Assembly (NCBI GenBank): GCA_020845935.1 | Contig: JADLEV010000023.1 | Coordinates: 1 to 42,904, forward strand | From: Gammaproteobacteria bacterium | Lineage (GTDB): Bacteria; Pseudomonadota; Gammaproteobacteria; Ga0077536 | Length of the DNA stretch: 42,904 nt | Direction: 5' to 3' | Part shown: positions 18,602-24,295 of the stretch, in pieces | Layout of the letters: every line of letters starts with the position of its first letter | Numbering within the stretch: the stretch's first letter is position 1 | Translations under genes and position numbers: made by a program | Notes under the pieces: model-generated | Database searches by the model: none | The model's input: only the letters and a program-made list of their open reading frames with translations | What the model was told of the DNA's origin: nothing

Positions 18602-19360
18602 ATGCGGCTGACCCGTCTCTACGTCGAAGCGGAGCTTGCCCCCGGACTGACGCTGCAGCTGGATGCGCGTGCCGCGCACCATGCCGGCACGGTATTGCGG
18701 GTGCAGGTCGGCGCACCGCTGATGCTGTTCAATGGCCGCGGTGGTGAGTACGAGGCGATCGTCACGCAGGCGCATCGCGGCCTGGTGACGGTCGAGCTCG
18801 GCGCCTGCCATGCCGCCGAACGCGAATCGCCATTGCGAACGACGCTGGTGCAGGCCGTGTCGCGTGCCGAGCGCATGGATTTCACGATTCAGAAGGCCGT
18901 CGAGTTGGGCGTCACGGCCATCGTCACGGTGCTCAGCCGGCGCAGCGTGCCGCGGTTTGCCGGGGATCGTGCCGAGCGCAAGGTCGAGCATTGGCAGGCC
19001 ATCGCCATCGGTGCCGCGGAGCAAAGCGGCCGCACGCGGGTGCCCACGGTGACGCCGCCGCGACCGTTGCTTGATTGGCTGGAACAGCCGCCGCTCGCCG
19101 ACGGCATCATTCTCGCCGCGGGGGCACCCGTCGCGCTTGCCGATGGGCTGCCTGCGGCGAAGTCGGCGACGCTGGTGATCGGTCCCGAGGGGGGCTTCGA
19201 GGCCGGGGAACAGCACGCGCTGCTTGCCGCCGGCTGCCGCGCGATGGCGCTCGGCCCGCGCATCCTGCGCACTGAAACTGCGGCGCTGGTCGCGCTCGCG
19301 ATTCTGCAAAGCCGTTGCGGCGATCTCGCCGCGACCACCGGCCCGATCGAATCCTCATGA
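18602..19360 (+). CDS. rsmE: 16S rRNA (uracil1498-N3)-methyltransferase
   Basis: RsmE methylates N3 of U1498 in helix 44 of 16S rRNA, using S-adenosylmethionine, after 30S assembly. It is 252 residues, as usual. The N-terminal PUA-like part (RLYVEAEL, HHAGTVLRVQVG) is followed by a SPOUT domain with the trefoil-knot motifs KAVELGVTAI, VIGPEGGFEAGE and LGPRILRTETAALVAL. The start at 18602 fits the conserved N-terminus. It probably shares a transcript with rsd. Confidence 0.96.
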   Translation: MRLTRLYVEAELAPGLTLQLDARAAHHAGTVLRVQVGAPLMLFNGRGGEYEAIVTQAHRGLVTVELGACHAAERESPLRTTLVQAVSRAERMDFTIQKAVELGVTAIVTVLSRRSVPRFAGDRAERKVEHWQAIAIGAAEQSGRTRVPTVTPPRPLLDWLEQPPLADGIILAAGAPVALADGLPAAKSATLVIGPEGGFEAGEQHALLAAGCRAMALGPRILRTETAALVALAILQSRCGDLAATTGPIESS

Positions 19361-19427
19361 CCGAGGGCAGAGTGACGAGCGGCACGCCGTGCACCACGCA
19401 GACCCCGATTGGCAAAGAGATGCGACG

Positions 19428-19835
19428 ATGACTCCAGCGACCTACAACGACTATGTGGCGGCGTTCAACCGCCGCGATTACGACGCGATCTGTTCCTTCT
19501 TCGCGCCGGAAGTCGCGCTCCATTCGCTCGGCCACACGATCCGCCGACCGGACGGCATCCGCGCGTTCTACCGGTTCTTTCATCAGTATGTCGTCGAGAA
19601 CATCACCGTGACCGCGGCGGTCGGCGATGATCGCCACCTCTTCGCCGAAGGCGTGATGCGCCTGACCGGGTTGCAGGATTTGACGCAGGAGGTGTTGAGC
19701 GCACAGGGCTTTCCCCGCTTTACGCCGGTGCCGAAAGGGCTGTCGGTCGAGATCCCGCTGTTCCTGCATTACGACCTGAAGGACGGACTCGTCACGGAGA
19801 TCCGTTGCGCGGGCTACCTTCCTCCGGCACCGTGA
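19428..19835 (+). CDS. NTF2-like (SnoaL/ketosteroid isomerase-type) fold protein
   Basis: A small soluble protein of 135 residues with the cone-shaped NTF2-like fold: YVAAFNRRDYDAICSFFAPEV, then IRAFYRFFHQYV, then a strand-rich half ending LKDGLVTEIRCAGYL. Such proteins include isomerases, hydrolases and binding proteins, so no reaction can be named. An Asp/His pair expected for some enzymes is not clear. The ATG at 19428 was chosen by the domain start and a GAGA upstream. It is separated from the convergent selenoprotein gene by a 9-bp hairpin. Confidence 0.75.
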   Translation: MTPATYNDYVAAFNRRDYDAICSFFAPEVALHSLGHTIRRPDGIRAFYRFFHQYVVENITVTAAVGDDRHLFAEGVMRLTGLQDLTQEVLSAQGFPRFTPVPKGLSVEIPLFLHYDLKDGLVTEIRCAGYLPPAP

Positions 19836-19844
19836 GGCCGGGCA

Positions 19845-19868
19845 GGGGCAGACCTCCGTGTCTGCCCC
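19845..19868. terminator. 9-bp hairpin between convergent genes
   Basis: GGGGCAGAC and GTCTGCCCC pair perfectly around a six-base loop, between the stops of the NTF2-like gene (19835) and the selenoprotein gene (19881). No T-run follows on the plus strand (AAACC), so termination, if any, is not of the classic kind. Confidence 0.5.
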
Positions 19869-19880
19869 AAACCAGCCAAG

Positions 19881-21626
19881 CTACCGCCAATCATCGACCA
19901 GCACGCCGCGACCCAGGCGGAAATCGGTCGCGAACCACGTCGTCTGTACCGCGCCGCCGACGACGACGACCTGAATCGCGCCAGGATTGTTGAAGGGCTT
20001 GATCAACGCGTCGCCCGGCAGCTTGCGCCAGGTGGCATAGGGTTCGAGACCCTGCAGCGCCATCGCGATATTGGAGGTCGTAATGACGCCGTTGCCCCAG
20101 TAGGACGCGACCGTCTTGTCGACATTCTCCGACAGCCACTGGCTGAGTTGCTGCTTGGTCTTGAAGCCGTTGACGTCCTTCAGCAACTGCGCCACGGTCG
20201 GATCGACGAAGATGGTGGCACCGGAGCCGCTGCCCGACAGCGCCCGCATGTAATCGCGGATCAGCTGGTGCGCCGGATAGCTCGGCTGCACCTCACCGAG
20301 GCTCGAGATGTAGCTCCAGCCGGTGCCGGTGGTCACCACGCTGTCGGTCGGCTTGAAACCCATCTGCACGTGCAGCGGTTGCCAGCCTTCCGGCAACAGA
20401 TCCTCGTTCTCGGCTATGGTCAGGCTGTTGTATTGCAGGTTGTTGCCGAGGGACTCCCAGGCGGTGACGTTGTTGCGCATGTCACCTGCGGTCTTCGAGA
20501 TCAGCGTGAAGAAGCGGCCGATCACCGAGTTCGCCTCGTTGTATGGCCCCATCGCATTGGTACCGGCGTTCATGCCGAGCTCCTTCGCAATCGGACCATT
20601 GACGACGATCGTGTTCGCCATCGACGAGGTCGAGGTCGCGAACGGCGCGCGCGTCGAGAGTGCCAGCAGCAGCGGCATGTACTTCGGTTTAGCGCCCGCC
20701 ATCACCGCGTGGATCGCGACCTTCTCGACCGTCAGATCGCGCGCACCACCGGGAAAGGTCACGGTCCGGATCAATTCATCCGCTTTGTGACTGGTGCCGG
20801 TCAGCATCCTTTTGACGCGTTCTTCCGTCGGCAGAATGATCGGGTTGTAGTCGGTCCACTCGCGATCCTTGAAGAGTTGCTGCAGGTTCTCCTCGGTGTC
20901 GGCCGGCAGCAACCGTGGCTCAATCGATGCCATGTCACCGGCGGTCGTCACCACCCGCTCCTCGGCGGTCAGTGGCTTGGTCAACGCGATCTCGATCGCT
21001 TCCATCATCGGCTTGCCGGACAGCGGCTCCGGACCGCGGACATACGCCTTGTGCACCGCCTTCGGCTGGCCGGTGATTGGGAAGGGGACCGCGACATAGC
21101 GGACCGGCATGCCATTGGTGTACTTGAAGTCGTAACCGATGGCGTAGCTGACGATGTTGGAGCCCGACAGGGCGACGGTGGGGACTTTAAGCAACTCCAG
21201 GCTGCGGGCGTGTCGGCTCACGGCCGACGCACAGCCGTTTCATTGCGCAATGCCGACGATGGCGGCATCTCCCTTCTCGTCGATCTCCTTCCACAATGCC
21301 GGATCGTCGCTGAACATGTTGTCCTTGGTGCGGCGCAGCTCGGTCTTCACGCTCGGCATGTTCTCCTTGAACCAGGCCTGCATTTCCTCGAGCACGCTGT
21401 AGCCGCCTTCCGGCCCGCCCCATTGAATGTCGACCAGGTAGATGGTCTTGCCTTCCAGCGTATCGAGCCGCTCGCTGAGCGCTTGCCGCTTCGCGAGCTT
21501 GCTCGGCATGGCCGGGTTCATCACGGTAATCTTTGGTTCGGCGGTGATGCCGTCGGGTGCATACGCGGTGAACGCGGATGCCGCAAACGCGATCAGCAGC
21601 GCCGAGGATCGGTAGCTACGTTTCAT
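19881..21626 (-). CDS. Exported UGSC-family selenoprotein with in-frame TGA (Sec129)
   Basis: One frame of 582 codons interrupted only by TGA at 21240-21242, codon 129. Read as selenocysteine, the protein has 581 residues. Residues 1-23 are a signal peptide (MKRSYRSSALLIAFAASAFT). The first domain ends with DAAIVGIAQ-U-NGC, giving a UxxC redox motif (Sec129, Cys132) at the place where UGSC-type proteins carry U/C-G-S-C. It continues VPTVALSGSN and YTNGMPVRYV. The C-terminal half (AIHAVMAGAKPKYMPLLLA, then IVVNGPIAKELGMNAGTNAMG) matches the second part of longer family members as I remember them. The ATG at 21626 has GGAGGG five bases upstream. The role is unknown; a thiol/selenol redox activity in the periplasm is likely from the motif. 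Conventional gene calling would give two genes, the second falsely starting at a GTG (21221) inside the hairpin. A nonsense mutation is the alternative. Confidence 0.8.
21208..21232 (-). promoter_or_regulatory. Candidate bacterial SECIS element
   Basis: Directly 3' of the TGA, GUCGGC (21223-21228) pairs with GCCGAC (21212-21217) around the loop CGUGA. Below a single C/A mismatch, GUG pairs with CGC for three more pairs. The apical loop begins 17 bases after the UGA and has a G within its first two bases, with a GU inside. These agree with the known bacterial SECIS rules (loop 16-37 bases from UGA, G in the first two loop positions). SelB binding is inferred. Confidence 0.7.
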
Positions 21627-21828
21627 GTTGCCCTCCAGTTGACGAGTCGAATGCCGGCTGGGCACTCGCAGCCTGTCGGACCGGGCGCCAGCGGCGCCGC
21701 TTGGGCCTGCGATTCGCAGCCGGCACCAAGCTCGCGACGCTGGAACCGGCGCGGCGAGCTGCCGGGCACCAGGGGCCCTTATGCTACGCTACCTCTGGAC
21801 TTTGCGGTTACGACCTCACGAACGCCCG

Positions 21829-22701
21829 ATGGCGAAGCAGGCACATCATTATTTCTGGCTGTCGACTGCGGCTGCTCTCGCCACCATCACGCTGAAGATG
21901 CTGGCCTGGCGCCTGACCGGGTCGATCAGTCTTGCCTCGGATGCGATGGAGTCGCTGGTCAATCTCGCGGCGGCCCTGTTTGCGCTGTGGATGATCCTCG
22001 TCGCCAAGGTCCCACCCGACGACGACCACCCGCTCGGGCACAGCAAGGCCGAGTATTTCTCGAGCGGCTTCGAAGGGGTCCTGATCCTGCTGGCGGCCTG
22101 CGCGATCCTGTGGGCCGCGGTTGGCCGCCTGTTGGCACCGGCGCCGCTCACCGCGCTGGATTTGGGACTCGCGCTTTCGGTCGTGAGCAGCGGCATCAAT
22201 CTAATGGTCGCTCTCATCATGCGCCGCGCCGCGGTCCGCTACCGATCGATCGCGATCGAAGCCGGTTCGAAGCATCTGCTGACCGATGTCTGGACTTCGG
22301 CCGGCGTCATCGTCGGCGTCGCACTGGTGCAGTTCACCGGCTGGCTGTGGCTTGATCCAGCGGTCGCGATCCTGGTCGCCTGCCACATCCTGCGCGACGG
22401 CGTGAATCTCGTGCGGGCGAGCGTGCTTGGCCTGATGGATGCCGCACTGAGTCCAACCGATCTGCAGGTGGTGCAGGCGGTGCTCGATCGGCTGGGCAGC
22501 GACGAGGTCTCGTTTGCCAATCTGCGCACGCGCCGCGCCGGTTACCGCAACTTCGTCTATGTCGACGTGCTCGTACCCGGAGACTGGTCCGTCCGCCGTA
22601 CCCACGTTCTGCTCGATCGGATCGAAGCGGAAATCACCGCGGGATTGCCGGACACCATCGTCATGACCCACGCCGAACCCGCCCCGGGCACTTGGCAATG
22701 A
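21829..22701 (+). CDS. Cation diffusion facilitator family transporter
   Basis: A metal-ion/proton antiporter of the inner membrane, about 290 residues, with six predicted membrane helices and a cytosolic C-terminal domain. Family features: SISLASDAMESLVNLAAA in helix 2, DDDHPLGHSKAEYFSSGFEG after helix 2, and SKHLLTDVWTSAGVIVGV in helix 5 with the HxxxD metal pair. The helix 2 site reads ESLVN where FieF/YiiP has DSLVD, so metal choice cannot be transferred from YiiP. The ATG at 21829 starts the conserved part. An ATG at 21781 is in frame, but TATGCT there may be a -10 box. It is divergent from the selenoprotein gene. Confidence 0.9.
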   Translation: MAKQAHHYFWLSTAAALATITLKMLAWRLTGSISLASDAMESLVNLAAALFALWMILVAKVPPDDDHPLGHSKAEYFSSGFEGVLILLAACAILWAAVGRLLAPAPLTALDLGLALSVVSSGINLMVALIMRRAAVRYRSIAIEAGSKHLLTDVWTSAGVIVGVALVQFTGWLWLDPAVAILVACHILRDGVNLVRASVLGLMDAALSPTDLQVVQAVLDRLGSDEVSFANLRTRRAGYRNFVYVDVLVPGDWSVRRTHVLLDRIEAEITAGLPDTIVMTHAEPAPGTWQ

Positions 22702-22871
22702 CCAAAGCACCGGAGCGCCGACTGCGGCCCGCGAAAAGAGAACTTCAGCGGGATTCCGGGCGGCGCAGGGCCGTGGCCAAAGGGAAGTGGCAACTCAACC
22801 CGCGCCAGTTCCAGGATCGACAAAACTGAAGACCCTGCTTATCCTTCCTTACGTTCGCTTCAGGTGACCCC

Positions 22872-23945
22872 TTGAAAGACTCGACGATATCGTCACACGG
22901 ACTCGCCTCCTTCGCCCTCGCGCTCGTCTTGGCAACGTCCTTCTCGCTGCCGGCCCAATCGGCCGAGCGCCCCGCCGATGTGCTGGGGTTTGCCTTCATC
23001 GGCCACCATGTTTCCGACCTGGAGAAGTCCATCGCCTTCTTCGAGGCCATCGACTTCAAGGTGATCGAAGGGCCGACTTCCTGGGTCGTCGACGAGGCGC
23101 TGAATCGGCTCGGCAACACTCCGGGAGCGGAAACGCGCACCGCCGTCATGCAGGTGCAAAGCTCCGTCTCCGACGTCCCCTTCAACCTCGTGCTGCGTCA
23201 ATACCGCGGCATCGAGCGCCAGGATTGGAGCACGCTCCATTCCTGGGATCTGCTCTCGAGCCATATCGACCTGACCATCGAGGGCAGCGTCAGCCCGCTG
23301 CTGGACAAGCTCGAAGCGATGAACATGCTGGTGATGCCGGAAGTCCAGGGACTTCCCAACGAACGAACCGTGCCCGGCGATTTCCGCCGCTTCGCCTTCA
23401 TCCAGGATCCCGACGGGCTCCTCATCGAGTACTTCGGGAAGGCGTCGGATCCGCCCGCGCAGCCGCTGGTCTCCAATTCCACGGCCACCAACGCCAACGT
23501 CGACCGCTGGGGCAAGCAGGCCGGCTTCAATCACTACGCCACCAACGTCATCGATCCGGAGACGGCCCAGGATTTCTACGTGAAGGTCTTCGGCGGCGAC
23601 TATCCGGAACTGGAAGGCCGTCGCGGTGAGAGCGCCCAGATCATGATGCACGGCTGGTTTCCGCAGGCCACCACCGAGGAGAACCTCCGCCTCGAGCTGA
23701 TCTATTTCGCGCGGAACGAAGGCAAGAGCGCTCCACCGATCAAATTCCAGGACATCAACGCCAATTTCGCCGGCTTCCAGGTCAGCAACATCGAAACCGC
23801 CTATGCGCGAGCCAAGGAGCACGGCGCCATCACCGTCACCCAAGGCGGCATCATTGACTTCCATGGGGATAGGGCCGTGTTGATTCGTGATCCTGACGTG
23901 GGCGGCTACCTCATGCTGGGGCAGCCCGCCCGTCGGACGCAGTGA
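22872..23945 (+). CDS. Exported two-domain VOC (glyoxalase/dioxygenase-like) protein
   Basis: A 357-residue protein with a signal peptide (LASFALALVLATSFSLPAQSA) and two vicinal oxygen chelate domains, about 38-190 and 218-352. Domain 1 has GHHVSDLEKSIAFFEA, SHIDLTIEG and FIQDPDGLLIEYFG; domain 2 has NHYATNVIDPETAQDFY, FAGFQVSNIETAYARA and LIRDPDVGGYLMLG. Metal-ligand candidates (H in GHHV, E in IEYF) are kept in domain 1, less clearly in domain 2. VOC proteins include glyoxalases, extradiol dioxygenases and resistance proteins; export is unusual, and the substrate cannot be told. The start is TTG (22872), with AGGTGA just upstream and no ATG before the signal peptide. Confidence 0.85.
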   Translation: MKDSTISSHGLASFALALVLATSFSLPAQSAERPADVLGFAFIGHHVSDLEKSIAFFEAIDFKVIEGPTSWVVDEALNRLGNTPGAETRTAVMQVQSSVSDVPFNLVLRQYRGIERQDWSTLHSWDLLSSHIDLTIEGSVSPLLDKLEAMNMLVMPEVQGLPNERTVPGDFRRFAFIQDPDGLLIEYFGKASDPPAQPLVSNSTATNANVDRWGKQAGFNHYATNVIDPETAQDFYVKVFGGDYPELEGRRGESAQIMMHGWFPQATTEENLRLELIYFARNEGKSAPPIKFQDINANFAGFQVSNIETAYARAKEHGAITVTQGGIIDFHGDRAVLIRDPDVGGYLMLGQPARRTQ

Positions 23946-23983: not shown

Positions 23984-24295
23984 TTGTCCTCGCTTCCCCC
24001 GTCGCCCTCGCCGCGATTGCCCGAGGCCGACAGGCTGGCAGCCGGGACGATTCATGTGGTGGTGGCGGTGGCCACCTCGACGGCCTTCACGAACGGCATG
24101 CCCGGCTTACGCATCGTGTTTGCGCCGCATCCCGTCACCGGGTGCACCACCGCGGAATCCACCGCGTATCTCCAGGGCAACGATCCGGTCAGCGGCGATC
24201 CGATGCTGGCGGGGGTCCTCACCGGGTTGACGGGCAAACTGGCCAGGCAGGACAGACAGTCCGGCATCCTCGGGTGCGGGGAATGGCGACGATGA
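23984..24295 (+). pseudogene. Fragment of a second UGSC-family gene
   Basis: The frame contains VVVAVATSTAFTNGMP, then RIVFAPHPVTGCTTAES and LQGNDPVSGDPM. This matches by eye the stretch after the Sec motif in the protein encoded at 19881-21626 (YTNGMPVRYVAVPFPITG, then VRGPEPLSGKPMMEAI). The N-terminal domain with the U/CxxC motif and the whole C-terminal half are missing, and the first 20 residues look unrelated. About 50 residues align, so I read it as the remnant of a paralogue. A small functional protein is possible but unlikely. Confidence 0.5.

Follow-up and report, generated by a model that had tools for sequence, protein, structure and literature searches.

A hairpin with the features of a bacterial SECIS element downstream of an in-frame UGA in a fused two-domain gene of the UGSC family

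The UGSC-containing family consists mostly of selenoproteins, with 255 selenocysteine (Sec) and 21 Cys forms counted; its fusion with an unnamed domain has already been noted, and a thioredoxin-like fold has been proposed for it (PMC2398784). For bacterial SECIS (bSECIS) elements, the published model describes an apical loop of 3–9 nt on an upper stem of 4–16 bp, a G within the first two loop positions that is often followed by G or U, a distance of 16–37 nt from the UGA to the apical loop, and a free energy of −7.5 kcal/mol or lower; the structure is kept in genes with UGA and relaxed in those with a Cys codon (PMC13188914). Selenoprotein-rich bacteria have also been described, including Olavius algarvensis Delta 1 with 57 selenoprotein genes and a Methylomirabilota MAG with 63 (PMC13188914). 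Here we analysed a 42,904-nt stretch of gammaproteobacterial DNA (hereafter the window), in which a gene of the UGSC family on the minus strand is interrupted by an in-frame UGA at 21240-21242 and a hairpin follows directly downstream. The combined evidence makes it very probable that this hairpin is a bacterial SECIS element, that Sec is inserted at the UGA and that a 581-amino acid protein is made.

A two-domain UGSC-family gene and its paralogues

Translated with TGA as Sec (U), the gene at 19881-21626 (minus strand) encodes a putative two-domain selenoprotein of 581 amino acids with Sec at residue 129; the read-through frame, intact over 581 codons, runs from an ATG at 21626, preceded by a Shine-Dalgarno-like GGAGGG (21631-21636, minus strand), to a TAG stop. 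The product matched the Pfam UGSC family PF24696 with 47.9 bits (gathering cut-off 25), whereas against the NCBIfam UGSC (seleno)protein equivalog NF041046 it scored 33.8 bits, below the cut-off of 125; from its sequence it would belong to the same superfamily as NF041046, outside that equivalog. TGA stands at the same column in homologues and is the predicted Sec codon of a UxxC redox motif, here U129-N-G-C132, whose partner cysteine is encoded by TGT at 21231-21233 (minus strand). Both columns are invariant in an alignment of 47 proteins, and the nearest homologues are 63–74% identical, with the alignment running across the UGA. The Sec/Cys pair of this motif may act in redox chemistry. A probable N-terminal signal (MKRSYRSSALLIAFAASAFTAYA; 21558-21626, minus strand) was recognised in the sequence and would direct the protein to export.

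An AlphaFold2 model built with 47 homologues reached a pLDDT of 92.5, residues 1-19, at the putative signal, being of low confidence. In this model, residues 56-223 form an open alternating beta/alpha domain of Rossmann/flavodoxin type, in which U129 lies between beta-3 and alpha-3, and alpha-3 begins at C132; such an arrangement, as modelled, is a common one and points to no function. Structure comparison of the same residues gave 8s7v chain H as the best match (Z 11.2 over 140 residues, rmsd 5.0); there was no thioredoxin fold among the structure matches listed, which excludes nothing. A PDB sequence search returned no convincing relative (best E 0.04). The C-terminal ~350 residues form a second domain, for which a Pfam search yielded no name; in relatives it is a separate neighbouring gene, sometimes fused to a thioredoxin-like domain. 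At loci L142-L149 and in genomes of the same bacterial family, a small gene of its own encodes the UGSC domain next to the gene for the C-terminal domain; in the genome studied here, the two are fused.

The genome to which the window belongs (2.16 Mb, 62.5% complete) contains 13 PF24696 genes, each with exactly one in-frame TGA; the 12 further paralogues are located on contigs C8, C12, C38, C41, C49, C65, C74, C89 and C94 of this assembly (G000). In 30 more genomes from its bacterial family, PF24696 was matched 52 times, always with one TGA. Four genomes besides these (two gammaproteobacterial MAGs, one Acidiferrales and one deltaproteobacterial) had 9–25 hits apiece; where a hit covered the motif, it nearly always had one TGA. 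The window also holds an orphan fragment on the plus strand (24041-24259) that resembles residues 154-225, without the Sec motif or the C-terminal domain, and is probably the remnant of a duplicate. Elsewhere in the family, one gene (L135, G061:C128) has a pair of adjacent UGA codons in the motif (U-U-G-C) and possibly encodes a double-Sec protein. The conjugative IncP plasmid p2-T1 of Acidovorax sp. T1 (L189) carries a UGSC gene in which an in-frame UGA is followed by a good SECIS hairpin; this gene would rely on the Sec machinery of its host.

Anatomy of the UGA and the hairpin (21208-21242)

All elements described below lie on the minus strand. After the TGA and an 11-nt spacer (AACGGCTGTGC), the 5' arm GTCGGC (21223-21228) faces the 3' arm GCCGAC (21212-21217) across the apical loop CGTGA (21218-21222; CGUGA in the RNA), giving a predicted bacterial SECIS hairpin at 21212-21228 with the 6-bp stem GUCGGC/GCCGAC. 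The minimum free energy structure from RNAfold contains this hairpin. Compared with the published model, the loop measures 5 nt and has G as its second base followed by U, the upper stem comprises 6 contiguous bp, the distance from UGA to loop is 17 nt, the hairpin itself beginning 11 nt after the UGA, and the stem alone has a free energy of −14.1 kcal/mol. The initial annotation had described this GC-rich 6-bp stem, placed a CGUGA loop with G second and GU inside 17 bases past the UGA, and concluded that the hairpin obeys the bacterial SECIS rules; the minus-strand sequence bears out each of these points exactly, for all the sequence and structure rules of the model (PMC13188914). The same annotation had regarded a GTG in the loop (21219-21221), mechanically called as the start of a 446-amino acid downstream open reading frame, as a false start, and this codon indeed falls inside the SECIS loop. 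Its three additional lower pairs fared less well: 21230-21232 can pair with 21208-21210 over a 1x1 C-A mismatch, which would extend the modelled hairpin to 21208-21232, but the pairs form in only 6–8 of 12 homologues, and no covariation was found for them in that set. An Rfam scan of 19000-23000 returned nothing relevant at E ≤ 10.

We infer that SelB binding and Sec insertion take place here: with the ribosome at the UGA, SelB carrying Sec-tRNA(Sec) would bind the hairpin 11 nt downstream, recognising the loop G-U; Sec would be delivered and termination by release factor 2 avoided. Translation would then go on to the TAG at 19881, giving an exported 581-amino acid protein with the U-N-G-C redox motif.

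Judged from this sequence alone, whether the hairpin exceeds chance expectation has a mixed answer. With the hairpin scored by stem-only energy (pairs outside it excluded), an equally good bSECIS-type hairpin followed only 3 of the 249 other codons in a same-gene control. Dinucleotide shuffles of the 71-nt region gave z = −1.6, 18 of 200 being as good, and when the 20 codons downstream were recoded synonymously, 919 of 5,000 variants (18%) folded equally well, so that significance against synonymous recoding is not reached for the hairpin of this gene alone. The GC-rich peptide A-S-A-V-S-R in itself favours such a stem.

Conservation of the hairpin with UGA

We extracted 125 distinct homologues, with TGA (112), TGC (7), TGT (1) or other codons (5) at the Sec column, and added seven plasmid loci, among them three Neorhizobium TGC genes and one Acidovorax TGA gene; conformity with the bSECIS rules was scored with the spacing limited to 16–22 nt and stem-only energy. 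A conforming hairpin at the same alignment column was present in 94 of 113 UGA homologues, 2 of 13 with a Cys codon and 0 of 6 with another codon, the UGA and Cys counts being not fully independent as the Cys forms come from few lineages. When homologues were grouped at 70% local identity, the majority of members passed in 38 of 47 UGA groups versus 2 of 9 Cys groups (Fisher P = 0.001). Relative to their own synonymous recodings, the median was 1.8 SD below for UGA genes and 0.3 above for Cys genes. The Neorhizobium plasmid homologues with TGC match nearly the whole fused protein (~39% identical), and no bSECIS hairpin was found in them. The comparison of UGA and Cys homologues that the initial annotation had proposed thus showed a hairpin neither equally conserved in the Cys forms nor lost in the UGA forms, with covariation kept, which is the pattern of the published model.

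Covariation was evaluated in the 12 nearest homologues with loop CGUGA, aligned without gaps. Both this class and a second one with loop GGUC were selected by their loops, so the invariance of the bases CGUGA among the 12 is not evidence, whereas covariation of the stem still counts. The basal pair occurs as GC (five), CG (three), UA (two) and AU (one), and the second pair as UA (seven), GC (four) and UG (one). The covariation score of the CGUGA class was 0.412 versus 0.109 for shuffled alignments, none of 500 reaching 0.412, and at most 0.068 with the pairing partner slid; RNAalifold recovered the same six pairs unaided. For the 26 sequences of the GGUC class, the score was 0.252 versus 0.128.

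Codon choice after the UGA was examined as well. In UGSC-type genes, Ser at +7 is encoded by AGU in 40 of 40 UGA genes; only two Cys genes have a Ser at this position, and they use UCC or UCG. The amino acid is the same while the codons differ (AGU versus UCN), and AGU supplies the GU of the loop, a sign of constraint on the RNA. The Val-Ser following the UGA in the 12 CGUGA homologues uses GTG for Val (12/12) and AGC or AGT for Ser (12/12), whereas across the same genes GTG makes up 35% of Val codons and AGC 25% of Ser codons, a bias that is only partly independent because the genes were chosen for the loop CGTGA. The many Sec paralogues together with the few Cys homologues offer a rare natural experiment separating RNA from protein constraint, as in the AGU versus UCN serine. 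The statement in the initial annotation that the hairpin is unlikely by chance holds only in part for the single sequence, given the fraction of recodings that fold as well, and holds for the family through the UGA/Cys contrast, the covariation and the AGU codons; this family evidence removes the doubt left by the single-sequence tests.

These data also bear on the reading that annotation pipelines would adopt, in which the UGA is a true stop, the hairpin is incidental to GC-rich coding sequence and a separate downstream gene starts from the GTG at 21221. The 18% of equally good recodings and an assembly without selA, selB and selC speak for it, but 47 proteins show unbroken homology over the UGA, their U129 and C132 being invariant, a TGA occurs once in each of 65 UGSC genes from the bacterial family, Cys codons take the place of UGA elsewhere, the GTG has no Shine-Dalgarno sequence and sits in a stem-loop, and the stem covaries; we regard a true stop as highly improbable.

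Two further groups of genes were noted in this survey. In the UGSCTK[YF]L subgroup (L125, L126, L129; L131:4765-6321), UGA lies within the motif, and a hairpin obeying the bSECIS rules was sought and not found, a point against the SECIS reading. In three members, a long stem (~11 bp in L126) could close a loop of some 18 nt, and the member in the relative G058 is located between selB and selA. At L119, L133 and L134 (G061), family members have a codon for Leu (TTA), Asn, Ser or Ala where the others have UGA, and lack a SECIS hairpin that fits the rules at 16–22 nt; the TTA copy keeps the Cys of UxxC.

Sec machinery and comparison with known systems

SelA was above its cut-off in four of four relatives, SelB in two (G058 and G059), and tRNA-Sec with anticodon UCA was present in three; G058 and G059 have all three components, and in G058 selB, selA, tRNA-Sec and two UGSC genes lie inside about 10 kb. 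A search of the 62.5% complete assembly studied here did not find selA, selB or selC (tRNA-Sec). Its SelB-like matches were below the curated cut-off, and its hits to the tRNA-Sec model were below the family cut-off, those checked by ARAGORN being ordinary tRNAs (Ser, Gly, Tyr, Leu). Because 38% of the genome is missing, the absence of one sel cluster is weak evidence. The genome does contain selD (G000:C46:3121-4035, L179; 435 bits, cut-off 125), in a Cys form (GAGCGCK), whereas the SelD matches in the four relatives have an in-frame TGA.

The open downstream frame would also suit decoding of the UGA by a near-cognate or suppressor tRNA (Trp or other), with the hairpin as a generic stimulator of read-through; stable structure past a stop codon can help read-through. 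We consider this extremely improbable: the codons replacing TGA at the column are mainly Cys and never Trp, relatives possess tRNA-Sec(UCA), SelA and SelB, and spacing and loop fit the SECIS rules. Furthermore, UGA is the ordinary stop of 4 of the 7 window open reading frames checked and of selD, indicating that the code is not reassigned.

A decaying paralogue was considered as well, in which the SECIS element would be real by descent and no longer read through, in an organism that may have lost Sec decoding. The negative search for sel genes in an incomplete assembly, the Cys form of SelD and the one decayed family fragment at 24041-24259 are in keeping with such a loss. It is nevertheless very unlikely, as the 581-codon frame is undamaged and the stem perfect, all 13 paralogues keep a UGA in an open frame, 38% of the genome is missing, and a single 10-kb sel cluster such as that of G058 could easily be lost in binning. 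With Sec insertion as the preferred reading, correct annotation adds a 581-amino acid selenoprotein where uncorrected annotation would give two truncated proteins; with the paralogues, at least 13 selenoproteins are added to one genome.

Taken together, the evidence supports a typical bacterial SECIS element, whose mechanism is known, in a gene that is new to the known UGSC family of selenoproteins. The E. coli fdhF SECIS stem has a bulged U, which is absent from the stem here, and the loop is CGUGA, not GGUC, although paralogues do use GGUC. The gene resembles the UGSC family (PF24696, NF041046; PMC2398784) in its UxxC motif with UGA, its PF24696 match above the cut-off and the predominance of Sec forms; in contrast, its motif is U-N-G-C, not UGSC, it is fused to the ~350-amino acid C-terminal domain, a single genome carries 13 or more paralogues, and its modelled fold is an open alpha/beta one of Rossmann/flavodoxin type where a thioredoxin-like fold had been proposed. 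What is unusual is the expansion of these fused two-domain UGSC selenoproteins into many paralogues. Tentatively, and at somewhat less than even chance, this expansion (9–25 hits per genome, with nearly all motif-covering ones having one Sec codon) might extend over several lineages, be physically linked to sel genes in at least one and let a poorly known enzyme family make up a large share of the selenoproteome, with the UGSCTK[YF]L proteins inserting Sec by way of a non-standard hairpin. Such genomes are like Olavius algarvensis Delta 1 and the Methylomirabilota MAG in their many selenoprotein genes, and differ from them in that one family alone accounts for 9–25 hits per genome.
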